From Lysinibacillus sp. JNUCC-52 (GTDB lineage: Bacteria; Bacillota; Bacilli; Bacillales_A; Planococcaceae): 64,000 nucleotides of DNA. Positions within the stretch are counted from its first letter, which is position 1. Each line of letters starts with the position of its first letter. The translations under genes were made by a program, and so were the position numbers. Location: contig NZ_CP065546.1 of NCBI RefSeq assembly GCF_015999545.1, positions 124,001-188,000 of the forward strand, written 5' to 3'. This document shows, piece by piece, positions 38,162 to 60,926 of the stretch. The notes under the pieces were generated by a model. It saw only the letters and a program-made list of their open reading frames with translations. It had not been told where the DNA came from and ran no database searches.

Positions 38162-38718
38162 ATGACACTTGAAACGGTTCAAGCATTTCTAATCGACAAT
38201 GATGAGGGGGAGACATGGTTCCAATCATTTGCTGATACGAATGTAACGGAAGCGATTAAAACGTATGAAACGAAAACTCTTCCAAAGAAACTAGAAGAGG
38301 AAATTGCAAAGCTTCATCCTCTGGTAACGTATGAAACGAAACAGTTACGTAAGTTAAAGGCGCGATTTCAGCAATCACATAAAGAAGCTGCACGTGAAAA
38401 GTTAATTAATCAGGCATTATCTATTCCAACCACACTGAAGAGTAATCATACTTCATGTCTAGCTTGGGACATTGCCATGGCTCCTCCACTAAGCTTATTG
38501 GCCCAGATCGAGTAGGGTCAATAGTTAGTAATTTAGGTTTAACGTGTGGCGGTGATTGGGCACGCAGCATTGACCGACCTCATTTTGAAGTGAAACGCAA
38601 TTGGAAGATGCCTAGAGGGTACAGATTAGAAGGACGAGTTATCGTGCAAAGTAATAGTAAAATGAAAGATTTTTTAATTAATTGTGAAAGACAAGTAAGA
38701 GGAGGTTACGGTGGCTAA
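38162..38718 (+). pseudogene. Phage scaffold-like N-terminus fused to M15 endolysin remnant
   Basis: Residues 1-85 (MTLETVQAFLIDNDEGETWF, then LEEEIAKLHPLVTYETKQLR) resemble DUF4355-type phage capsid scaffold proteins. After ALSIPTT the frame enters SNHTSCLAWDIA, which matches the SxHxxGxAxD zinc site of M15 L-alanyl-D-glutamate peptidases. A frameshift near 38,480 puts the rest (GLTCGGDWARSIDRPHFEVK, the second zinc site) in another frame to 38,718. Two phage genes normally several kb apart are joined, so this is a deletion scar. Confidence 0.65.
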
Positions 38719-38896
38719 TACAAATTGGAATCCTAGTTCATCAGCAATGAGAACTGAAACAGAAAACTTTATTGCACAGTCTTTGAAAGAGGGGATTATA
38801 AATGCTTCACATTTGAATGACTTGCAGAATGGCATTTTGACAACGGATCGTTTAATCGGTCTTTATATTACTATTCAGCAGAGAAGGAATAAATAG
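38711..38896 (+). CDS. Small hypothetical protein (61 aa)
   Basis: AGAGGAGGTTACG precedes a GTG. The product (ANTNWNPSSSAMRTETENFI) is polar, with no signal or membrane segment. It follows the endolysin remnant and may be a phage leftover that stays open. Function unknown. Confidence 0.45.
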   Translation: MANTNWNPSSSAMRTETENFIAQSLKEGIINASHLNDLQNGILTTDRLIGLYITIQQRRNK

Positions 38897-39017: not shown

Positions 39018-39203
39018 TTCTTGTTTTTTACCAGTAGAAGCCCATTCATACAAAAATATAAAGAAAAAAGTCATGAAGGTCTTTGAGAAGTTCATACCCC
39101 ATTCAAACCTATCATACTTAAAATAATCATAAGAAGTGTAAGAAAATAAAATTAAAAAGAAAAAAACGATTGTTAAAATAATTTTTCTTAAATTTATATT
39201 CAT
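38994..39203 (-). CDS. Small two-TM membrane protein (69 aa)
   Basis: AGAGGCAATT precedes the ATG. Helices lie at about 7-25 and 42-54, with a strongly charged tail (GKKQEKKDQESD). No family recognised. Confidence 0.55.
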   Translation of the reverse strand: MNINLRKIILTIVFFFLILFSYTSYDYFKYDRFEWGMNFSKTFMTFFFIFLYEWASTGKKQEKKDQESD

Positions 39204-39478
39204 AATTGCCTCTTTTCTAAAAATCTTTCGTCCTTATATGAATTATAACATTTAACTAATTTGTAAAATAATACACTTTTATTTTAGCTTCACTAAATTG
39301 CTTAAATGGTACCATTCTGTTCTCTCTTAGAAAATCCCCCAATACGTATAGTACATCCATTTTTCAGGTGTAAAACAACCCCCAACCAACCCGACTTCGT
39401 TACACAAAAAAAGTCACGAAAGTCACGAAAAAGTTACATTTCTCCCGAAAACATGTGATTTTGGGCGAAAACAAGTTT
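39204..39478. other. Possible prophage edge with direct repeats
   Basis: No gene. AAGTCACGAA occurs at 39,411 and, overlapping by one base, AAGTCACGAAA at 39,420. A related AAGTCACGGAAAG lies at 39,638. Short direct repeats near the integrase side of a prophage can be integrase arm sites. No core att site could be defined. Confidence 0.35.
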
Positions 39479-39585
39479 TTGTACATTCGTAAGAAACCTT
39501 GCTATAATGGGCTTTGTGATTACATATGAAAGAGGGTAAAAGCATGAATGCTTACGACGAATGTATGCGTTCATGCTTTTTTTAT
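39479..39585 (+). ncRNA. Promoter-terminator unit, small RNA or 21-aa peptide
   Basis: TTGTAC (39,479) and TATAAT (39,503) are spaced by 18 nt. The predicted transcript of about 70 nt ends at a strong terminator: AAAAGCATGAATGC (39,538) pairs with GCGTTCATGCTTTT (39,567), then more T. Inside, AGAGGG precedes ATG (39,544) opening MNAYDECMRSCFFYVLIYQR, which runs through the hairpin. It is either a small RNA or a short toxin-like peptide. Confidence 0.5.
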
Positions 39586-39684
39586 GTCTTGATATATCAG
39601 CGTTTGTAGGGATTTTTTGAGGTTGGTTTTTTGGAAAAAGTCACGGAAAGTAAACATTTATTATAGTTTTTTTCATTATTTAAC

Positions 39685-39738
39685 TGCTATAATTAAAAAA
39701 TTGCTATATAATTGAGGTAAATTTAACTAAATTTAACT
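39685..39738 (+). promoter_or_regulatory. Promoter and tandem repeat before the defence-like pair
   Basis: TGCTATAAT (39,685) is an extended -10; a second TATAAT lies at 39,707. Two tandem AAATTTAACT units (39,719 and 39,729) sit between the promoter and the gene and could be an operator. Confidence 0.45.
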
Positions 39739-39766
39739 AAATTTTTTAGAATATGTGGTGACTAAA

Positions 39767-41080
39767 ATGATACCTAATAATCTATTTATTAGAAATATAG
39801 AATTAACAAATCATAAGTATTTCCCTTTAAATAAACCTTATTTTGATCCCGATATTGAATCGGAAAGAATAATTACCAAAGATTCATCTGAATATGTAAG
39901 AAGCTTTTTTTCTTCTAAATTAAGAGATCTCGAATTAAGAAGTGAAAATAATTTAATTACATATATTAAAGAACATTACAATAGACAACATAGTCTAGAA
40001 TTAGATGTAGAATTAAAAAAAAATTTAGAAGAAGAAGATTTATCAGCATTAAAAGAGAGATATAAAGAAGATGTGACTGAAGCTAGTTTTTTTTGGGATC
40101 AAGCGATTGAATTTTATAAAGGAACTATTAATATGGATGTACACGTAAAGCCATTGAGTATTTATTATTTTATGTTAAATGCTGCTAAAGCATTACTAGT
40201 ATATAACGGAGTACTTTATAAAGATAGGAATAGTAAAAATGTTTATCACGGTGTAACCGGGTTAGACTTAAGAAATGTTGATAAACAAAAATTTTTAGTA
40301 AGGACTTCTGAACATAGAATAATTTATTTCAATGAGAATTCAGATTTAAATAGTATACAAGACAAACAGATTGATTATAATTTTATTGAGTTAAATGAAT
40401 TGTATATTCAGAGTAATAATGGAGTATTTGCAAATTTGGGGAATTTTTTTAATAACAATATAAAGAGTAAGGAGATTTTTAGTTTAGACGATTTAATAAG
40501 TAATTTAGTTTTTGTACATAGGGCATATTCTATTTGCAAAGGTATTAATATTGATGGTCAACTATTTATACCTTTAGAATCTCAATGTTTTGGAACTCAT
40601 CCAGAAGAAAATAAGTTTCTTTATTATTTTAAAATTGACACTAAATATAAGTTACAAACTTTAGGGAATATTATTGATCTAACTACCTATGTTTCTGAAC
40701 AAGGAAACCATTATATGATTAAATCTGATCAATCTTATAGCAATAATTTTAATGATATTAAAAGTTTTATTCTTGATATTAGGCAGAAACATCAATATAT
40801 TGCTGGAGTGAAACCAAGGTGGTATTTAATGAAAGCAACAGACTGTGATAATATTAAAAATTTAGAATTAAATCCGTTAGTAATATTACTAGGTATCTTC
40901 CATAGACTTAGTGAGTTTTCTAGGTATAATCCATTAAAATTAAAGAATCTACTTGATTCTAAAAAGAACGAAACAAGTTGGTTATTAAGAGAGTTGATTG
41001 AAAATGCTGCGTATCAATTTTTGGATCTAATCTCATCAGAAATTACTCATAAAGAATTTCACTTACCAAGAACTTATTAA
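39767..41080 (+). CDS. YaaC-like (HEPN-related) protein
   Basis: GGTGACTAAA precedes the ATG at 39767 (437 residues). The core PLSIYYFMLNAAKALLVYNG near residue 130, then HGVTGLDLR, and the end (ILLGIFHRLSEFSRYNPLKL, then NAAYQFLDLISSEITHKEF) match the YaaC-like family. These are large helical proteins with HEPN-like features, common near nucleases and in defence islands. There is no signal or ATPase motif. The PD-(D/E)xK-like gene follows 31 bp later, so they form a two-gene unit beside the integrase. The biochemical role is unknown; defence is inferred from context. Confidence 0.6.
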   Translation: MIPNNLFIRNIELTNHKYFPLNKPYFDPDIESERIITKDSSEYVRSFFSSKLRDLELRSENNLITYIKEHYNRQHSLELDVELKKNLEEEDLSALKERYKEDVTEASFFWDQAIEFYKGTINMDVHVKPLSIYYFMLNAAKALLVYNGVLYKDRNSKNVYHGVTGLDLRNVDKQKFLVRTSEHRIIYFNENSDLNSIQDKQIDYNFIELNELYIQSNNGVFANLGNFFNNNIKSKEIFSLDDLISNLVFVHRAYSICKGINIDGQLFIPLESQCFGTHPEENKFLYYFKIDTKYKLQTLGNIIDLTTYVSEQGNHYMIKSDQSYSNNFNDIKSFILDIRQKHQYIAGVKPRWYLMKATDCDNIKNLELNPLVILLGIFHRLSEFSRYNPLKLKNLLDSKKNETSWLLRELIENAAYQFLDLISSEITHKEFHLPRTY

Positions 41081-41111
41081 AATTATTAATTACAGTAAGG
41101 TTGGGGTTATT

Positions 41112-42128
41112 TTGAGAAATAGAAAAGAACTATTTTACAGATCTATTGCCAAAGAATTTCATGCAAAGAAGGATCGTCTAAACTATTTTTTGGATTTTAA
41201 ATACGATTCACCATTTCAAGAATTATTTGAAATTAAAAAAAAGATAAAAAATAAAGCTCCAGATAAAAAATTGTCAGCTCTCTTGCGAAGAAAATTAACT
41301 GAAATACTTACAAAATTGAATAAACCCCTCGATAATGCATTAGAAAGTGAAAAGGAGATTTATGATTTTATAGAGAGTGTCTTAGAAAATACACCTCCAA
41401 ATATTCAATTTGGTCCAGAAGGTAGTTACAGGGAATCACTTATAAGAAGCTATTTAAAAGAAATCTTACCTCAACCAAGTGCTGTTGGAACTGGTTTTAT
41501 TTTGAACGAGAATAACTCTAGTAGTAAACAAATAGATATTATTATATATGATCCAAGAATACCCACTTTATTTAATTCGGATGATCTTGTAGTAGTCGTT
41601 CCAGAGGCTGTTTATGGAATAATTGAAGTGAAAACAACCCATCGTAGTTTTAATTTTAAGAAAGAACTTGAGAACGCAAATATAAATGGAGAGTTAATAA
41701 CAAAACCTCTGAAAACATTTTTAAAAGAAAATAACTTTTATATTGATAATGAAGTAACTAATGATTACTTCTTTAATGGAATATTTTATTATTCGCTTGT
41801 GAATGATATTTATACTAAAGATGGATTATTTTTAGAAAAAGAGCAGAGAGATAGATATATCTGGGAGGCTGAAGACTATAAAAACGTAAATTATATTGCT
41901 TTTTCTAGTAGCGTATTCGGCCGAAGGTACGGAGAGGAATTCTCTTATTATGATATGAATAAAAAGCAACTCGCTTTTTCTTATTTTTTTTCTAATCTAA
42001 TCCGTATCATAATGAATAGAAATAATGTTTCAAGCGAAGCTATAAATAATCATATATTTCCTATAGATGACCCAAACGGGAAAGAGTCTTTGAAAATAAT
42101 AATGGTTAATGGAGTTACTAGTTTATAG
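41112..42128 (+). CDS. DUF6602 nuclease-like protein
   Basis: AAGGTTGGGGTTATT precedes a TTG. The N-terminal 90 residues are helical. Residues 100-180 have the DUF6602 core: FGPEGSYRESLIRSYLKEIL, then SKQIDIIIYDP and YGIIEVKTT, i.e. E, D and ExK in the order of a PD-(D/E)xK nuclease fold. A FNSDDLVVVVPEAVYG strand lies between. DUF6602 proteins are found in mobile defence loci. With the YaaC-like partner upstream, this suggests a two-gene anti-phage unit carried by the prophage. Nuclease activity is inferred only from motif order. Confidence 0.7.
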   Translation: MRNRKELFYRSIAKEFHAKKDRLNYFLDFKYDSPFQELFEIKKKIKNKAPDKKLSALLRRKLTEILTKLNKPLDNALESEKEIYDFIESVLENTPPNIQFGPEGSYRESLIRSYLKEILPQPSAVGTGFILNENNSSSKQIDIIIYDPRIPTLFNSDDLVVVVPEAVYGIIEVKTTHRSFNFKKELENANINGELITKPLKTFLKENNFYIDNEVTNDYFFNGIFYYSLVNDIYTKDGLFLEKEQRDRYIWEAEDYKNVNYIAFSSSVFGRRYGEEFSYYDMNKKQLAFSYFFSNLIRIIMNRNNVSSEAINNHIFPIDDPNGKESLKIIMVNGVTSL

Positions 42129-42137
42129 TACTCCATT

Positions 42138-43289
42138 TTATTTATCCATTAGTAACTCCGTAAACTTATCATGCATCCTCTCCGCGGCAGCCACCCGCAT
42201 CCCTGAAGTAACATGCAAATAAATCTTAGTAGTTGTATCAGAATTTTTATGTCCAACCCGATTCATAATAAAGTTTAAATCCACACCAGCCTCTGCCAGT
42301 AGACTAATATGTGTATGGCGGAGGAGGTAGGTGCGGAATTGTTTGTTGATCTCGGTGAGGGCGCCGATGCGTCGGACGGTTTGGTTTAGCATTTTGACGG
42401 TAGGGGGGATGCCCTCCTTATCGCCGAAAACAAAGTCGGACTTAGTCCATTCGCGATACTCGTGCCATTGGTAAAGTTGCTTCAATTTTTCCACCACAAT
42501 ATCATCAATATCGACGGAGCGGACGCTGCCTGCTGTTTTTGGGGGCGTGAGCTCGAAGTCGCCTCGTAAACTTTTCTTTGCATACACTGTTTTGTTGATG
42601 TGTATGACCTTCTTCTCCAAATCCACATCCTCATATTTTAACGCAACAGCTTCGCCTGGTCGCATTCCTGTAAAAGCGATTGCGTAGATCAGCGTGCGAT
42701 ATATGATATTACGATGTTTGTCTACGTAACTTAAAAATTCCTTCAGTTCATCGGTTTCTAAATAAAGTTTCGCTGTGTCCTCACTGCTAGCTTCCTCTAG
42801 CGTCATTTTTTTCTTCGGTACAAAAGTAGCTTCCACAGGATTCATCTCAATCAACCCAGATTCTTTGGCATAGGCAAATAACATTTTGGCTGTATTATGA
42901 GTGCCACGTAGCGTATTATAGGCTGTTCCATTCGCAAATAAATGATTGAGCAAACCTTGTAATTCGATAGACGTGATTGCAGTCATTTTCTTTTTGGCCA
43001 AGTATCGATTGAGTAGGGTGATGCAATAAGTACGGTGTTCATTTGTCGTTTCCTTGTTGCCTTTCATACGGTAGAGCTTTAACCAATCTTGGCTAAATTC
43101 TTCAAACGTTATCTTCGCATCGAAGTAATATGCTTTGTTTAATTCAGCTATAGCTTTTTCAACTCTTTCGCGTGCTTCTGTTTTACTTTTACCACGTCGT
43201 GTAATTTGACGGCGTTTGCCAGTGGCAGGGTTACGAGGGCCTTCACCAGTGCACCGCCAAGTTGTCTTATTAATTTGAACAAAATGCAT
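42138..43289 (-). CDS. int: Phage tyrosine recombinase (integrase)
   Basis: The 383 residues have an N-terminal arm-binding region (WRCTGEGPRNPATGKRRQIT), a SAM-like core-binding domain (about 60-150), and the catalytic domain with the first Arg in TGMRPGEAVAL, LLRHTHISLL, VGHKNSDTTTKIYLHV and the tyrosine in IYLHV. It catalyses site-specific integration of the prophage. AAAGGTGGTGACAGCTA precedes the ATG. It is transcribed leftward, convergent with the YaaC/DUF6602 pair only 9 bp away, so the attachment site is probably left of 39.8 kb. Confidence 0.95.
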   Translation of the reverse strand: MHFVQINKTTWRCTGEGPRNPATGKRRQITRRGKSKTEARERVEKAIAELNKAYYFDAKITFEEFSQDWLKLYRMKGNKETTNEHRTYCITLLNRYLAKKKMTAITSIELQGLLNHLFANGTAYNTLRGTHNTAKMLFAYAKESGLIEMNPVEATFVPKKKMTLEEASSEDTAKLYLETDELKEFLSYVDKHRNIIYRTLIYAIAFTGMRPGEAVALKYEDVDLEKKVIHINKTVYAKKSLRGDFELTPPKTAGSVRSVDIDDIVVEKLKQLYQWHEYREWTKSDFVFGDKEGIPPTVKMLNQTVRRIGALTEINKQFRTYLLRHTHISLLAEAGVDLNFIMNRVGHKNSDTTTKIYLHVTSGMRVAAAERMHDKFTELLMDK

Positions 43290-43304
43290 TAGCTGTCACC
43301 ACCT

Positions 43305-43661
43305 TTATGAAAGTACTTCCCAAATTATTTTTAGTTTTTCGACGTCTTTCTCATTACAGTGGGGGAGAGACTTGTACCATTGCTGTAATGAGGGATTGTG
43401 AGGAAAAGGTTCTTTTAATGCAGGATTATAAGAAGGGTCATCGTACAAACCTGCAACCTCAATTAGCTTTATGTAATCATATTGATAGGCTGTGGCAATG
43501 CGTTGCAATGTTTCAGGCGTAGGTTTTATCGCATTGCCAGTACGACGATCCGTTCCTCTTTCAAGCATAGCCAAGTAAGAAAACGTAATATCCATACGTT
43601 TTGCTGCATCACGTAAAGATTCATCACCACGTAGTTCCTTTAATAACTCACCTAAACTCAA
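43305..43661 (-). CDS. Xre family HTH regulator
   Basis: The 118 residues have a helix-turn-helix (RDAAKRMDITFSYLAMLERG, about 17-36) extended by TPETLQRIATAYQYDY. The C-terminus (SLQQWYKSLPHCNEKDVEKL then IWEVL) is the same module as in the three repressors at 47.4-51.1 kb. It lies between the integrase and ImmA genes, the lysogeny cluster. It probably works with ImmA. Confidence 0.85.
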   Translation of the reverse strand: MSLGELLKELRGDESLRDAAKRMDITFSYLAMLERGTDRRTGNAIKPTPETLQRIATAYQYDYIKLIEVAGLYDDPSYNPALKEPFPHNPSLQQWYKSLPHCNEKDVEKLKIIWEVLS

Positions 43662-43714
43662 AATCGTTCACCTTCATATCATTAGTTTTGAATGCATATA
43701 CCATTCTGTTTTAA

Positions 43715-44341: not shown

Positions 44342-46057
44342 TCACTTCATAAATAATTTATTATCTTTAGAGAGAATAAGAATTTTATCTTTGTCAGATA
44401 TTACATCCATATCTTTAATTTTTTCATTAAGTACAGCTACTATATATTGACAGTCTATTGTTTTTACAAGATTGAATATTTTAGTAAGAATATCACTTTC
44501 AATAGTTTCGATTACGTCATAAACTATGAAGTGCGGTATCAGTTTATTTATTTTCTTTGCAAATTGAATATATGATAAATCGAAAGCACTAATAAGACCC
44601 TTTTTTGTTCCGATACTAATACTTTCATCAGATGCTAACAAATATAAAGGAAAGTTATTTATATCAGAATCATACCCTAATTTATATGTGATACCTAGGA
44701 TTTTTTTTGAGTTTTTTGCAAAATACTCATTAAATAGATCTAGATTATCGTATGCATCAAAAGGAGAAAGATTTAATGCTACCATAAAACTCGTATATTC
44801 ATCTTGAGCTTTACTTTTAGCGGTATTTAAAACATTAATTTCAGATTGAAAAGATTGTAACTCTAATAGTTTTGCTTGTTCATGAGTTAATTCTTCATAA
44901 AGTGTATTACTTTTATCAAAGTCAAAATTTTTAATGTTAGATGAAATGTCTATATAAGCTGCATTTAATCCTTTTTTCAATATATGTAATTCTTCAAGTT
45001 CTTTTGACTTAACATCTAATACATGATTATAATATTTTATTTTATTTTTAACTAAAGAATTGTTAAATTGTATTAAATCACTAAATGTTTTTTCTACATT
45101 AAGCTTTAATTTATTTGTTTCATTATATAAAACTTGTAAAACTTCAGTATCAATATCTTTATCACTTTGAAAAGTATAATCGAGGTTTTGTTCAAGCATT
45201 TTTATTTGAAAGTTGAACGCTCCAATTTTTTGATTCAATAATTCTATTTCAGTTTGCAATTTTCTTAACTCTTCAATTTTATAAATAAAATTATCGTCGG
45301 ATGAATTAATTTTAATTTGATTTGATAGGGATTGAATAAAATCAATTTGGTTTTTAATAGTCTCTTCTAAATTAAATATATCTTTTTTCTCTAGAAATTT
45401 ATTGAAAGTAACTATATCATTTTCATATTTTTTTGAAACTGAACGATTATTAGCTATTTTCTTATTTTCCTCCTCATCTATTAAATTAAATAAAAAATTA
45501 TAGATTATCCGATAGGAAAGATTGGAATGCATTTTATTAGATGAGAAACGTAAGAGATTATATGCACCAGCTTCCATTTCAACTCTAACGAATTTTTTTA
45601 TTAAGTCTATATAATCAGGAACTGAATCGGAGTAATTAAAAATTAATTTATTTAATTCTGGGAAATAATTATCTTCTATATTTTTTAGCTGATTATTGAT
45701 CTTTCTTCTTCCATAGCTAAATAATTCAACAGACAATGTAATATCTGCTTCTTGATTAGGATTATTTAAATTATCTTTATCAATAGATAGTTCTAGAATG
45801 GCTTCAATTTTATGATTATGTATATAGTCTTTTAATGGTTTATTAATTAAATTAGTTTCTTGATCGGTGTAAATAGAGCTTTTGTCTTTTTCCCCCAAAC
45901 AAATATCGATGATTTTTAATGTAGTTGTTTTCCCAACGTTATTTCCAGAGTGTTTACTATCGTCAACAATAAGATTAATACCTAATTTAAATGGAATACT
46001 TCTAATAATTTTTATTTTAGGTTTAGTTTCTTGAAGGATTAATTTTCTAATAAACAT
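44342..46057 (-). CDS. DUF2326 SMC-like ATPase of ABC-three-component system
   Basis: The 571 residues start with an ABC/SMC-type head: GNNVGKTTTLKIIDICLG carries Walker A (about 38-46). A long coiled coil follows (about 215-420, e.g. LRKLQTEIELLNQKIGAFNF), then a C-terminal head part with ISIGTKKGLISAFDLSYIQF and PHFIVYDVIETIE as a Walker B-like strand. This matches the DUF2326 ATPases of ABC-3C conflict systems. AAGGAGAAAAT lies in the end of the preceding gene, overlapping 19 bp, so the two are coupled. It likely senses or acts on nucleic acid. Confidence 0.8.
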   Translation of the reverse strand: MFIRKLILQETKPKIKIIRSIPFKLGINLIVDDSKHSGNNVGKTTTLKIIDICLGEKDKSSIYTDQETNLINKPLKDYIHNHKIEAILELSIDKDNLNNPNQEADITLSVELFSYGRRKINNQLKNIEDNYFPELNKLIFNYSDSVPDYIDLIKKFVRVEMEAGAYNLLRFSSNKMHSNLSYRIIYNFLFNLIDEEENKKIANNRSVSKKYENDIVTFNKFLEKKDIFNLEETIKNQIDFIQSLSNQIKINSSDDNFIYKIEELRKLQTEIELLNQKIGAFNFQIKMLEQNLDYTFQSDKDIDTEVLQVLYNETNKLKLNVEKTFSDLIQFNNSLVKNKIKYYNHVLDVKSKELEELHILKKGLNAAYIDISSNIKNFDFDKSNTLYEELTHEQAKLLELQSFQSEINVLNTAKSKAQDEYTSFMVALNLSPFDAYDNLDLFNEYFAKNSKKILGITYKLGYDSDINNFPLYLLASDESISIGTKKGLISAFDLSYIQFAKKINKLIPHFIVYDVIETIESDILTKIFNLVKTIDCQYIVAVLNEKIKDMDVISDKDKILILSKDNKLFMK

Positions 46058-46281
46058 ATTTTCTCCTTACTATCAAGAGTAATTTTTTCCAATAAATACA
46101 AAAAATCTAATGCTAATATGAAATCTGAATAAGCCATATTTTTGTTGAATTTCACCTTGATTTCATCAAAAAGAATATCTATATCCTTACTTTTATCTTC
46201 ATTTATTAAAATAAAGAGGATGCATGCAGCACAATACATTATTGTATCTTGGGGATTTTTTAAATCATTTAATAAAAGCAT
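46039..46281 (-). CDS. ABC-3C middle component (MC6-like)
   Basis: The 80-residue protein MLLLNDLKNPQDTIMYCAAC.. with YSDFILALDFLYLLEKI near 55 matches the middle-component family 6 pattern of ABC-three-component systems, a small winged-helix-like adaptor between the ATPase and effector part. AAAAGAAAGGAACAC lies upstream. It overlaps the ATPase gene. Confidence 0.75.
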   Translation of the reverse strand: MLLLNDLKNPQDTIMYCAACILFILINEDKSKDIDILFDEIKVKFNKNMAYSDFILALDFLYLLEKITLDSKEKICLLEN

Positions 46282-46308
46282 TCAAATAGTGTTCCTTTCT
46301 TTTAATTC

Positions 46309-46875
46309 CTATTGACAGAATTCCTTAGGAGGTATATTTAATATTTTACATCTAGTAAATGCAAAAAAGACTACGCTTATTAAGACATCTTCAATGTGTT
46401 CATGGGTTAGAGTAGTATTCTGATAGCTATTATTAACAATGTCTCGTAACTTAGAAATGATAGAATGAACAATTTTATCACTTTCTACGTTAGCGTTAAT
46501 TAATAAAACATCATTATAAATAGTATTAATCCTTCTTAAAAGACTAGGGCCATTTATGGTTGAAGAACTAAATACCTTTGCTACAGATTCATAAAAAATA
46601 CTATATTCCATAAATATTTTTTTATAAATCTGTAAGGTGTTAAACTCCATTTTACATAACCAGTCTGGGTTTATAGCATAGGAAAGATCATTAGTCTCTA
46701 CTAAATTACCATCTAAAATTTCACATACTTTATATATTTCGCTTGGGGTAATAGTTTTTAAAGTAATATTTTGTATAGTTTGATTAATTGTTCCGTCATC
46801 ACCGTTTATGACTGCACTTTTATTTCCAATCGTTTGATTAGTTATAGTAGTATTATTTGAATTTACATTAACCAT
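46309..46875 (-). CDS. ABC-3C C-terminal-domain component
   Basis: The 188 residues end with the helical ABC-3C C-terminal domain (LCKMEFNTLQIYKKIFMEYS, then LISVVFFAFTRCKILNIPP). The first 40 residues are Asn/Thr-rich (TTITNQTIGNKSAVINGDDG) and look like a short beta repeat. Nearly the same motif ends the 78-residue membrane protein encoded just upstream. GAGGACGATTTGTA precedes the ATG. It probably binds the ATPase/middle component and links them to the membrane protein. Confidence 0.75.
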   Translation of the reverse strand: MVNVNSNNTTITNQTIGNKSAVINGDDGTINQTIQNITLKTITPSEIYKVCEILDGNLVETNDLSYAINPDWLCKMEFNTLQIYKKIFMEYSIFYESVAKVFSSSTINGPSLLRRINTIYNDVLLINANVESDKIVHSIISKLRDIVNNSYQNTTLTHEHIEDVLISVVFFAFTRCKILNIPPKEFCQ

Positions 46876-46887
46876 TACAAATCGTCC

Positions 46888-47124
46888 TCACATTGAACCA
46901 TTGTTGCCGTTTATGACACGACTACCTTTTCCAACTTTTTGGTTTCTAACAGTTGTGTTTCCATCCCCGTTATTCTCCATTTTTGTAATTTTATACAGAG
47001 CCTCGTTAGCAGTAGTTTTAGCTTTTGAACTTTGAACTAAAGCTATTCCACCGATAACAGCACCAAAAACGCCGGCGATTCCTCCTATAATTGTGAAAAC
47101 AGAAGCTAAATTATCTAAATTCAT
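46888..47124 (-). CDS. Small single-TM protein of the ABC-3C operon
   Basis: I placed the start at the ATG at 47124, behind AGGAAAGG. One glycine-rich helix (about 9-32, FTIIGGIAGVFGAVIGGIAL) is followed by KAKTTANEALYKITKMENN and the terminal motif NTTVRNQKVGKGSRVINGNN. That motif recurs at the start of the next gene product. It is first in the operon and may anchor the system to the membrane. Confidence 0.65.
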   Translation of the reverse strand: MNLDNLASVFTIIGGIAGVFGAVIGGIALVQSSKAKTTANEALYKITKMENNGDGNTTVRNQKVGKGSRVINGNNGSM

Positions 47125-47378
47125 ATCTATCAATCCTTTCCTGAGTAAAATATAGCTACCAATCTTGCTAGAAAATAATTTTTGTTTAGAATAATTTGTT
47201 GTTCAATATTAGATTTCGGTCAAAATATCCATAAAGGAGTATAAATTAGTTTTTTTTATAATTCAAAAGTTTTTTAAGAAAAGGGTTAATCTTTCATAGA
47301 AAAATATAAAATTAATACAAAAAATCATGAATTTAACAATTGATAATTGGTTTTAAGGACATGCTTTAATAGCATGTC

Positions 47379-58420: not shown

Positions 58421-59971
58421 ATGATTAATAGTTTTTACATAAAGGGGCTTTACGGCCAAAAAAATACTATAAAATTAGAAAATGTAGGAAATTTATCTAT
58501 ATTAACAGGTGATAATGGATCAGGGAAAACAACTCTTCTAAATTTACTATTTACTGTGCTTACTGGAGATTTTGAAAACTTATTTAAAACAAAGTTTAAT
58601 AGTCTTGAGATTGATTTCGATAATAATAAAAGGAAACTTCTTTCTATAGAAATAAAAAAAACAAAATCAACACTAGAAGTGTTTTATATTTTTGAAGATT
58701 ATGAGTTTTGCATAGAAATAGAAGATGTTGGTTTGCCTTGGAATAGTTTTTCCTACAAGTTAATAGACTATGATTCAGAATATACAGATTTAAATTTAGA
58801 AGAAATCACGGAATCTGGGGATTATTGTTTTGATGAAGTATTAGATTATGAAACTGCTATGAGTGAGGATGAAGATAATTATTATACTTCTACAAGGTTG
58901 TTTGATAATCTTGATGAATTAAAAGATAACTATCCTGAACTTTCTTTCATCGATGAAATCAAAAATTCAATACTATATTTTCCGACTTATAGAAGAATTG
59001 ACAGTGATATAAAAAATTTACTAGAGGATAAATATCATATTAATTCTCCATTTGCTTCAGATATTGATATATATAGAGATTTAAAAAATTTTCCAATAGA
59101 TCGTCGTGTTATAGGAGTCGATGACAAAGATATTGAATATATATATCAATCCTATTCAAAAGAGCTTCGTGACTTTAATTCAGAAGGATTAAATGAATTA
59201 TTAAAAAAGTTTATAAAAAGTATTATTGAAAGTATATATGAAAACAAAGATGAAACTAGAAAAGAAAGAAAGAATGATATCAATTTATATGGAAGTGCAG
59301 CTGAACAACTAATTGAACTTTCTAATAAATTGGGGATAGGTGAGGGGATAGACAAAGAAGAAATTAATAAATATTTTGAAAGTCAAAAATTAATTAGTAA
59401 TGATTCTAAAAATATTGTAGATAAAATAGAGATTAAATATACGGAAAGTTTAAATAACAATTATGGATTTGTAAGGGATTCATATCCGAGCCTTGTTGAC
59501 ATAGTGAACCAGTCCTTAAAAACAGTTAGTACAGAGACAAATTTCTTTATTAGATTAATCACACTTTATAGAGAACATGTTAATGAGCAAGATAAATTGC
59601 TCGAACCATTCAGGTATTTGGAAAATGGATTTAGTAATTTTTTTAAAGAAAAAGTTAAACTTAATTTTAATGAGAAAAATTACAATATTTCTTTATCACG
59701 CCCATTTGAAAAACTTTCAACGGGAGAAAAACAATTAATAACAATTCTATCTTATATTGGGTTAGTGTTAAGGAATTGCGTATTTACTCCATTAATTATA
59801 ATTGATGAACCAGAATTATCATTACACATATCATGGCAAAGTAAACTTCTACCACAATTATTAAAGAAGAAAGACACTAAGTTCTTGCTGGCAACACATT
59901 CCCCTTATGTAGCTAATATAAAATATAAAAATAATCTAGTAAAATTAGGTGATATAGATGAATATAAGTAA
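58421..59971 (+). CDS. AriA-like AAA ATPase (PARIS-like)
   Basis: ATGAGGTGAGAAA precedes the ATG. The 516 residues are an ABC-type AAA_15/21 ATPase: GDNGSGKTTLLNLLFTVLTG (Walker A about 30-38), an acidic insert, the signature LSTGEKQLITILSYIG near 432, Walker B LIIIDEPELSLH near 459-469, and ATHSPYVAN as the D/H loop. The DUF4435 gene overlaps by 14 bp. AAA plus DUF4435 is the AriA-AriB layout of PARIS, which assembles into a sensor for anti-restriction proteins. Overcoming Lysogenization Defect nucleases share the ATPase type but have a fused or different TOPRIM partner. Confidence 0.8.
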   Translation: MINSFYIKGLYGQKNTIKLENVGNLSILTGDNGSGKTTLLNLLFTVLTGDFENLFKTKFNSLEIDFDNNKRKLLSIEIKKTKSTLEVFYIFEDYEFCIEIEDVGLPWNSFSYKLIDYDSEYTDLNLEEITESGDYCFDEVLDYETAMSEDEDNYYTSTRLFDNLDELKDNYPELSFIDEIKNSILYFPTYRRIDSDIKNLLEDKYHINSPFASDIDIYRDLKNFPIDRRVIGVDDKDIEYIYQSYSKELRDFNSEGLNELLKKFIKSIIESIYENKDETRKERKNDINLYGSAAEQLIELSNKLGIGEGIDKEEINKYFESQKLISNDSKNIVDKIEIKYTESLNNNYGFVRDSYPSLVDIVNQSLKTVSTETNFFIRLITLYREHVNEQDKLLEPFRYLENGFSNFFKEKVKLNFNEKNYNISLSRPFEKLSTGEKQLITILSYIGLVLRNCVFTPLIIIDEPELSLHISWQSKLLPQLLKKKDTKFLLATHSPYVANIKYKNNLVKLGDIDEYK

Positions 59972-60926
59972 TGGGGAGATGCATGAAGAACTTCTAGAAG
60001 CTGTATTAGCTGAGGATTTCTTCGGTTATTCTGAAAACAATAACGATATTTTATTAGTTGAGGGTTCTGATGATATACAAGTTATAAAAAAATTTTATTA
60101 TCATAGGAGGAACGGCGATATTCCATTTAGGGTAGTAAAAGCTGAAGATTTAAACGAAATTTTATCAGGTAAAAAAAATGCTCTTAAGGCATATGAAAAA
60201 TATAAAGATGAAAAATCAAATTTAATATGTTTATTTGATCGTGACTTAGATTTCTTTTTAAATGAAAATTGTAAAGATGACAGAATACATTACTATGATT
60301 TTTATGAATTGGAGAATTATTTATTTGATGAATCTATATTAAAATTATTCTTTGATAGATACTATGATTGTGATGAAATTGAACTTTTTGAAAAAATGCT
60401 TGATGAATTTAATAATATTTCTGATTTATTATTTCATTATCCTAAACTTAGCTTAATAAGAGAACTGAATTTTAAATACAATTTTTTAAATGAAGAAGAA
60501 TTAGATAAAATAGTAAAACTTTCAAAAACAAAACCCATTCAAATTTTTAATAATCAAGCAGAGAAATATAGAAATTTAGATTTACTACAAAAATTTGATT
60601 TATTTATTTCTGAAGAATTAAATAAAGTTAATACTAGCTTAGTAGAAATTGAACAAAGGATTCTTCCAGATAATGTAGCGGCTACGATTTCAGAATATAC
60701 AAGTATGGAAAAAATGTTTTTCTTCAAGTACTGTATTAGTGCAAAATTTATATTGAGCTCTTTACATTTCCTTATGCAAAATTGTATTAAGGTGGGTACA
60801 ATAATTAATTCTGGAAATTCAAGTAGCTTAGAGCGTACTTTAAAGAAAGAGTGGATTCCTTGTAGATCTGATCATTTCCACACCTTAATGCTACAAATAG
60901 AGAATAAATTTAAACAATTAAGTTGA
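59958..60926 (+). CDS. AriB-like DUF4435 TOPRIM protein
   Basis: AATTAGGTGATATAG precedes the ATG inside the ATPase gene end. The 322 residues have TOPRIM-type motifs: ILLVEGSDDIQVIKKFYYHR (Glu35) and LICLFDRDLDFF (Asp94, Asp96, Asp98), then YDFYELENYLFDES. This is DUF4435, the AriB effector of PARIS, reported to cleave tRNA after activation. Key acidic residues are present, so it looks intact. It is coupled to the AriA-like gene. Confidence 0.8.
   Translation: MNISNGEMHEELLEAVLAEDFFGYSENNNDILLVEGSDDIQVIKKFYYHRRNGDIPFRVVKAEDLNEILSGKKNALKAYEKYKDEKSNLICLFDRDLDFFLNENCKDDRIHYYDFYELENYLFDESILKLFFDRYYDCDEIELFEKMLDEFNNISDLLFHYPKLSLIRELNFKYNFLNEEELDKIVKLSKTKPIQIFNNQAEKYRNLDLLQKFDLFISEELNKVNTSLVEIEQRILPDNVAATISEYTSMEKMFFFKYCISAKFILSSLHFLMQNCIKVGTIINSGNSSSLERTLKKEWIPCRSDHFHTLMLQIENKFKQLS

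Follow-up and report, generated by a model that had tools for sequence, protein, structure and literature searches.

Here, we identify two adjacent genes of Lysinibacillus sp. JNUCC-52, encoding a large helical YaaC-like protein and a DUF6602 protein, as a candidate two-gene unit, not an established system, within an integrated phage-derived element. The genes lie in a stretch of 64,000 nucleotides (contig NZ_CP065546.1, positions 124,001 to 188,000), hereafter the window, to which all coordinates without a prefix refer. We tentatively favour a reading in which the pair is anti-phage cargo, with a NucC-type nuclease effector that is uncoupled from cyclic nucleotides and under the control of YaaC. 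The pair sits in a variable slot between the left attachment site (attL) and the integrase gene, and the other occupants of this slot include defence-type genes. Its second protein is, judged by sequence, a PD-(D/E)XK nuclease of the NucC superfamily and probably not a NucC activated by cyclic triadenylate (cA3); its first protein falls within a clade of YaaC proteins from mobile elements. Already known are NucC as a cA3 nuclease and the defence hotspots of prophages; the YaaC-DUF6602 pair itself was seen once.

The gene pair occupies a variable cargo slot

The features on which the argument rests are the following.

39331-39567, no strand assigned: attL region, with a 94% identical copy (attR) at G000:C1:193166-193399
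39494-39567, no strand assigned: attB-like segment, the 5' end of a bacilliredoxin-type gene plus upstream sequence
39718-39744 (or 39719-39744), + strand: tandem repeat AAATTTAACT, 2.6-2.7 copies of a 10-bp unit with 100% matches, near-palindromic
39755-41080, + strand: YaaC gene (PF14175), 441 amino acids (aa) from GTG or 437 aa from the ATG at 39767, proposed sensor or regulator
41112-42128, + strand: DUF6602 gene (PF20247), 338 aa, TTG start with GGGGT upstream, proposed effector
41535-41633, + strand: predicted catalytic codons D142, E172 and K174 of the DUF6602 gene (Q140-I-D142 ... E172-V-K174)
42138-43289, - strand: tyrosine integrase gene (PF00589, E 2e-26; phrog_1, E 3.5e-74), other border of the cargo slot

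Both open reading frames (ORFs) of the pair were found at the place and on the strand originally predicted, with a 31-bp gap between them, and the integrase gene, which lies 9 bp past the DUF6602 gene, is convergent with them. The YaaC gene has two equally good starts, the GTG at 39755 and the ATG at 39767, the latter preceded by a GTGGTG stretch. The YaaC protein matches PF14175 with an E-value of 1.5e-31 and 110.4 bits against a curated cut-off of 27, so that the first gene is indeed YaaC-like, and the DUF6602 protein matches PF20247 with an E-value of 5.5e-21. The G+C content is 25.4% for the YaaC gene and 28.5% for the DUF6602 gene versus 42.5% for the integrase gene, a sharp contrast that fits exchangeable cargo.

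The borders of the element were searched for by comparing window positions 39200-43700 with 61 genomes and then with 32 genomes of the genus, the own genome included. Matches overlapping the segment 39494-39567 were present in 32/32 of the latter. The 94% identical copy of 39331-39567 corresponds to window coordinates 69166-69399, past the end of the window, and leads into an intact bacilliredoxin-type gene (PF06491, E 9.5e-57). We read the two copies as putative attL and attR and, thus, place the element at ~39.5-69.4 kb with the pair as its first cargo, in agreement with the left prophage end that had been presumed beside the pair.

The pair fills a slot of ~2.6 kb. The same integrase is encoded in six other genomes of the genus (80-97% protein identity), and four of the six have attL, then a different cargo and then the integrase gene, giving four distinct cargoes; the sixth of these relatives, G802, is split over contig ends and was left out of the slot scoring. 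The four cargoes are:

G804: one 427-aa gene of no family
G793: an 829-aa helicase (PADLOC PDC-S28, E 0)
G780: a 735-aa protein with a cold-shock domain plus AAA (weak CSD_V match, E 8.5e-9)
G215 (integrase gene frameshifted): a 1025-aa HATPase protein (TmtA, E 1.6e-148) plus a TIR protein (PDC-S35, E 3.8e-88; Pfam CAP12-PCTIR_TIR, E 4.3e-39)

Strong PADLOC defence matches, therefore, occur in two of the four slots with other cargo (G793 and G215), and the suggestion that the pair occupies a site for phage-borne defence cargo holds in this form: the slot is variable and defence-type genes are among its other occupants. No cargo lies in the slot of the two relatives whose integrase is divergent (62%; G790 and G796), and in G100 (integrase ~65-69%) no attL match lies beside the integrase gene. 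A second partial integrase match was seen in G790 and one in G806.

Hotspots of defence genes in prophages and satellites are described by Rousset et al. 2022 (PMC9122126), and the slot resembles them in having variable cargo, defence genes included, beside an integrase gene. In the Bacillus hotspot of that paper, the cargo is flanked by a regulator and by a peptidase adjacent to the integrase, whereas the pair is on the other side of the integrase, between attL and the integrase gene.

The 427-aa cargo of G804 (L127:698-1981) has no significant family match; it has an R-S-A-F-V-H stretch resembling the HEPN Rx4H motif and a DUF4145 match at E 0.11. It is a further candidate defence gene.

The DUF6602 protein as a NucC-superfamily nuclease

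The assignment of the DUF6602 protein to the NucC superfamily is based on profile, model and residue comparisons. First, the DUF6602 profile A2 has five significant matches among solved sequences, four of which are NucC by name and the fifth "Bacterial protein ORF C62" (7zgv, E 2.8e-20; 6uxf, 6.9e-20; 6p7o, 1.1e-16; 6p7p, 3.3e-15; 6q1h, 2.6e-14); profile A5 finds the same five with E-values down to 3.8e-25, and the window protein alone matches 7zgv with an E-value of 5.7e-7. Second, the PADLOC models PD_DExK and NucC match the window protein with E-values of 6.3e-24 and 2.8e-14, respectively. Third, the catalytic positions 73, 104 and 106 of E. coli NucC correspond in the alignment to D142, E172 and K174 of the window protein, and across 53 aligned DUF6602 rows D is conserved in 53, E in 51 and K in 53. 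The PD-(D/E)xK order noticed at the outset is, thus, present and can be sharpened to the NucC superfamily.

NucC is a homotrimer that turns into a hexamer upon activation. Its residues Arg53 and Tyr81 contact cA3, roles that did not turn up in the literature searched. While the window nuclease shares with NucC the homologous domain, the aligned D-E-K residues and the QID...EVK motifs, it has Pro122 at the position of Arg53 and a loop that is one residue shorter than that of Tyr81 and contains no Tyr. It also has an extra segment at residues ~18-80, its C-terminal part does not align with NucC, and it gave no alignment with the NucC T226 region. In the own genome, there was no match to SMODS (PF18144) or RAMP (PF03787), other cyclase models not having been searched. 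The lack of Arg and Tyr at the aligned positions, together with the lack of SMODS and RAMP matches, suggests that the window nuclease is probably not a cA3-activated NucC.

NucC is the cA3-activated nuclease of the cyclic oligonucleotide-based anti-phage signalling system (CBASS) and of type III CRISPR (PMC8682760, PMC11229360, PMC10419184). A classic CBASS or CRISPR NucC was considered for the window protein and rejected on the genome and residue findings above. It could still be argued that the protein is a NucC-type, cA3-activated effector answering in trans to cyclic oligonucleotides from a CBASS or type III CRISPR system elsewhere, with YaaC an incidental neighbour. This is in line with the NucC homology and with the presence of one DUF6602 branch in type III CRISPR loci: in 7 of the 21 DUF6602-bearing genomes of the class, the DUF6602 gene lies at most ~5 kb from type III CRISPR RAMP genes. 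These seven proteins belong to the same Pfam family as the window protein, which also matches the PADLOC model named for a CRISPR-associated PD_DExK. However, they form one separate clade with 100/100 support, have E-V-D where the window protein has Q-I-D, and have, in 7/7 cases, a loop as long as that of NucC with the Tyr retained (x-Y-T-P), as opposed to the shorter loop without Tyr and the Pro of the window protein. The residue test is softened by the Lys, not Arg, that all seven have at the Arg53 position, so that the absence of Arg is no clean proof. Since neither SMODS nor RAMP was matched in the genome, we regard activation in trans as very improbable.

In the DUF6602 tree, from which 7 of 53 proteins were left out as near-copies or fragments (L040, L016, L017, L026, L021, L097 and L099), the window nuclease lies in a mostly non-CRISPR part, with a Priestia plasmid protein as its sister (95/84, long branch), and has the longest branch of its own clade. 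Several stand-alone relatives (L004, L005, L010, L011 and L014) have a loop that is shortened but still contains a Tyr. The loss of the Tyr, therefore, belongs to the window protein and is no clean mark of its branch.

The YaaC protein belongs to a mobile clade

YaaC proteins are common in the class, with PF14175 in 166 of 398 genomes, and on this count the gene might be a housekeeping yaaC displaced beside phage genes. By contrast, no YaaC match was found in the other four members of the genus among those 398, and a YaaC tree of 25 rows separates 19 mobile proteins (100/100) from 6 housekeeping proteins (100/100) with the window protein on the mobile side. On this placement we reject a displaced housekeeping gene, to which we give next to no credence. 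No branch of the tree is longer than that of the window protein, which also has insertions at residues ~49-83 and 183-213 that are missing from the aligned relatives.

The window YaaC has matches in 85 plasmid records. A mobile-YaaC profile found relatives on 15 viral contigs, the best on L101 (E 1e-33); a scan of viral contigs with the window YaaC protein alone gave no match, and phage records gave no match to either protein of the pair. Mobile YaaC is, thus, present on phage contigs and on plasmids, one of them typed IncY, and is met with differing partners. The gene that follows it is nucleoside deoxyribosyltransferase-like in the four cases tested (under the Pfam cut-off) and AbiTii (E 2.6e-38) in one more. 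In E. coli, a stretch with YaaC plus the deoxyribosyltransferase-like gene was matched in 109 of 5,426 genomes (106 over at least 80% of its length), and 109 of the 112 places are on plasmids. This arrangement, seen on the IncY plasmid and on phage contigs, resembles the window pair in having a small enzyme-like gene closely downstream; its partner differs in not being a nuclease, and the Pfam match of that partner is below the curated cut-off. The literature search on YaaC gave nothing on this E. coli plasmid pair. On the E. coli IncY plasmid, the mobile YaaC and deoxyribosyltransferase-like genes (L039:3854-5403) have as a neighbour, on the opposite strand, a large N-6 DNA methylase gene.

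A relationship of YaaC to HEPN proteins was also explored and remains a lead only. The HEPN model PF05168 matches 4 of 14 mobile YaaC proteins at E-values of at most 1 (best 3.6e-4); these four do not include the window protein, and the matches of L106 and L107, which are under the cut-off, lie around a YYxxxNAxKALL...HG stretch. HHalign comparison of YaaC with 24 HEPN proteins gave probabilities of 2-3%, which is not significant, compared with 0.0-0.5% for unrelated families; Abi_2 against YaaC gave 0.3%. The reading frames of the HEPN set were chosen by a score that rewards HEPN-like motifs, which biases the comparison toward resemblance; 2 of 30 loci had no candidate, and 4 of 28 candidates matching fewer than three others were dropped. 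The HEPN ribonuclease motif is R-x4-6-H; this spacing is missing among the invariant residues of alignments A3 and A4, in which the invariant His-Arg pairs are H255-R256 and H383-R384.

One unit or two independent genes

Against the proposal that the two genes form a unit stands, above all, the lack of recurrence. A conserved two-gene system is not supported, and the recurrent adjacency in unrelated genomes whose lack was named at the outset as refuting it did not appear: YaaC was found in 0/56 DUF6602 loci outside the own genome, and DUF6602 in 0/21 mobile-YaaC loci (15 viral and 6 plasmid). Among the 398 genomes of the class, YaaC and DUF6602 are side by side in the own genome only. Of the 56 loci, 47 also reach our own DUF6602 profile, and the nine weak ones below its threshold (L027 and L057-L064) are in no tree yet were scanned for YaaC; the loci from the class search extend 1.5 kb to each side, so that a YaaC gene farther away would be missed. 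YaaC was likewise found in none of six DUF6602 loci from a second viral scan (one sharing an earlier contig) nor in 13 further plasmid loci. Moreover, in 11 of the 21 mobile-YaaC loci the first 100 bp downstream contain no start of a co-directional gene, and one of the 21 is cut by a contig end; many DUF6602 genes, for their part, stand beside ordinary or unrelated genes. The residue findings on CRISPR-linked and stand-alone relatives described above count on the same side, as does G789, in which the integrase is broken and the slot holds a 1618-aa S-layer/Big-domain protein, so that the slot is not reserved for defence. The region 39400-42300 contains 13 promoter-like sites, compared with 18.4 expected by chance, and no terminator-like site; the promoter of its own that had been ascribed to the pair is, therefore, at chance level.

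The solo appearance of many mobile YaaC genes and the unrelated neighbours of DUF6602 genes suggest that each gene may work alone. Accordingly, a substantial possibility is that the mobile YaaC and the DUF6602 nuclease each act solo, as two independent single-gene cargoes that happen to lie side by side, both perhaps in defence. Each family occurs without the other in every other locus fetched, and L101, which holds the best viral YaaC match, lacks DUF6602 and has a gene convergent with YaaC next to it. What speaks for a unit instead is that the two genes share a strand, are separated by 31 bp and occupy the slot jointly, and that both proteins are unusually diverged and contain insertions absent from their aligned relatives. 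The long branches and insertions in both proteins would fit a partnership; they could, however, also come from A+T-rich drift.

The same strand, the short spacing and the architecture of a regulator plus a nuclease would also suit a toxin-antitoxin or addiction module, with the nuclease as toxin and YaaC as antitoxin, which would benefit the element by securing its maintenance. In all other loci fetched, mobile YaaC occurs without this nuclease and DUF6602 occurs alone, unlike an obligatory antidote and its target, and relatives of the element live without the pair. We consider such a module improbable.

Upstream of the YaaC gene, the tandem repeat is real: its perfect copies stand before the first gene, as originally noted, and two tandem units of AAATTTAACT occur once in the window and in 0/100 shuffles. 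It is a possible operator.

Neighbourhoods of DUF6602 genes elsewhere give a point of comparison for the window pair, for in them an abortive-infection gene beside DUF6602 does recur. Abi_2 is encoded 18 bp upstream of DUF6602 on A. baumannii pA2503, and Abi_C 12 bp upstream in a Bacteroidota metagenome-assembled genome and ~430 bp upstream on a Vibrio plasmid (THAF190c). These arrangements resemble the pair in having DUF6602 downstream, on the same strand, of a gene for an abortive-infection-type protein; they differ in the family of that upstream protein and, on the Vibrio plasmid, in the gap of ~430 bp. Pfam scans covered some of the neighbours, two sets of ten plus two chosen for their Abi annotation. 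Ten upstream neighbours comprised one Abi_C, two metabolic enzymes and seven proteins with no or a sub-threshold family; ten others comprised two CRISPR genes, one NA37, one AbiEii-like AAA ATPase, one DUF4379, one protein of no family and four ordinary cell proteins (YdjM, an NAD(P)-binding protein, citrate synthase and TauD). An Abi-annotated gene lies upstream in 2 of 16 plasmid DUF6602 regions read, and other neighbourhoods contain SIR2 plus DUF87 or a type I R subunit. Thus, DUF6602 genes are often in conflict contexts, i.e., with CRISPR RAMP, Abi_2, Abi_C, SIR2 plus DUF87 or type I R genes.

Proposed mechanism

The working model that we tentatively favour is as follows. The pair would be cargo of the integrated element, in its variable slot between attL and integrase. 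The DUF6602 nuclease, which lacks the cA3 receptor residues, would be the effector, and YaaC, encoded just upstream, would be a sensor or regulator that holds the nuclease silent. Upon infection by a competing phage, YaaC would release the nuclease, which would cut DNA, and the infection would be aborted or restricted. DNA cutting is suggested by homology, and control by YaaC is suggested by gene order and spacing, the missing NucC switch residues, the analogy with the Abi-DUF6602 arrangements and the divergence of both proteins; co-transcription, physical contact between the proteins, the sensing step and defence itself are what we infer. As originally noted, no characterised system is known to consist of this exact pair: the literature searched gave nothing on DUF6602 and nothing on YaaC in defence.

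A broader version of the model is that there is a class of two-gene defence modules in which a NucC-type nuclease, freed from cyclic-nucleotide signalling, is run by an adjacent helical protein of the abortive-infection type. By analogy, YaaC-DUF6602 would be one form of such a module and Abi_2-DUF6602 and Abi_C-DUF6602 others. Mobile YaaC would, in turn, be a general phage-sensing unit with exchangeable enzymes, a nuclease in this element and a deoxyribosyltransferase-like protein on E. coli phage-plasmids. Because the residue contrast between CRISPR-linked and stand-alone DUF6602 proteins is less clean than this version would have it, it is the less probable for it, and we rate it as unlikely.

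Other genes of the element

Two further loci of the element have features of defence systems.

44342-47133, - strand: probable ABC-three-component (ABC-3C) system, between an M78 peptidase gene near the integrase and the phage repressor gene
58421-60926, + strand: PARIS-like pair, a 516-aa ATPase matching solved AriA (E 1.3e-14) followed by a 322-aa protein

In the ABC-3C locus, the 571-aa protein matches PADLOC PDC-M68B (E 3.3e-10) and has no significant Pfam match; there is also an MC6 middle component (E 4e-13), a CTD10-type protein (E 7.6e-5, under the cut-off) and a small protein with a membrane-bound look. The position of this locus is much like that of the Bacillus prophage hotspot of Rousset et al. 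2022 (PMC9122126). For the PARIS-like pair, the 322-aa protein has no significant PDB match. Its LLVEGSDD stretch resembles TOPRIM/DUF4435 proteins. We regard the PARIS-like pair as the third defence candidate of the element, beside the YaaC-DUF6602 pair and the ABC-3C genes.

The phage genes within the element encode a repressor, an anti-repressor, a replication initiator, a DnaB-like helicase and a terminase small subunit. In its parts 39567-64000 and L136:1-5400 (~30 kb between the attachment sites), genes were also read as holin and endolysin. No portal, capsid or large terminase gene was obvious in the parts read, of which only ten proteins were scanned against PHROGs, and the element may be a satellite or a remnant. 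Just left of attL, ORF pieces at 38162-38896 resemble by eye the endolysin-like ORF L136:2993-3673 near attR and probably stem from the decayed end of a different element that shared this site. In G798 (C36:5852-12703, L137), two copies of the attachment segment flank 6-7 kb that show no match to this integrase; this may be a small satellite that uses the same bacilliredoxin site.

Implications

Were the proposed reading correct, the NucC fold would not be tied to cyclic nucleotides; bacteria and their mobile elements would combine it, as a module, with other sensors. A first function would, thereby, be given to two families of unknown role, mobile-element YaaC and DUF6602, and the gap between attL and the integrase gene in this group of prophages would be a place for finding further defence genes.

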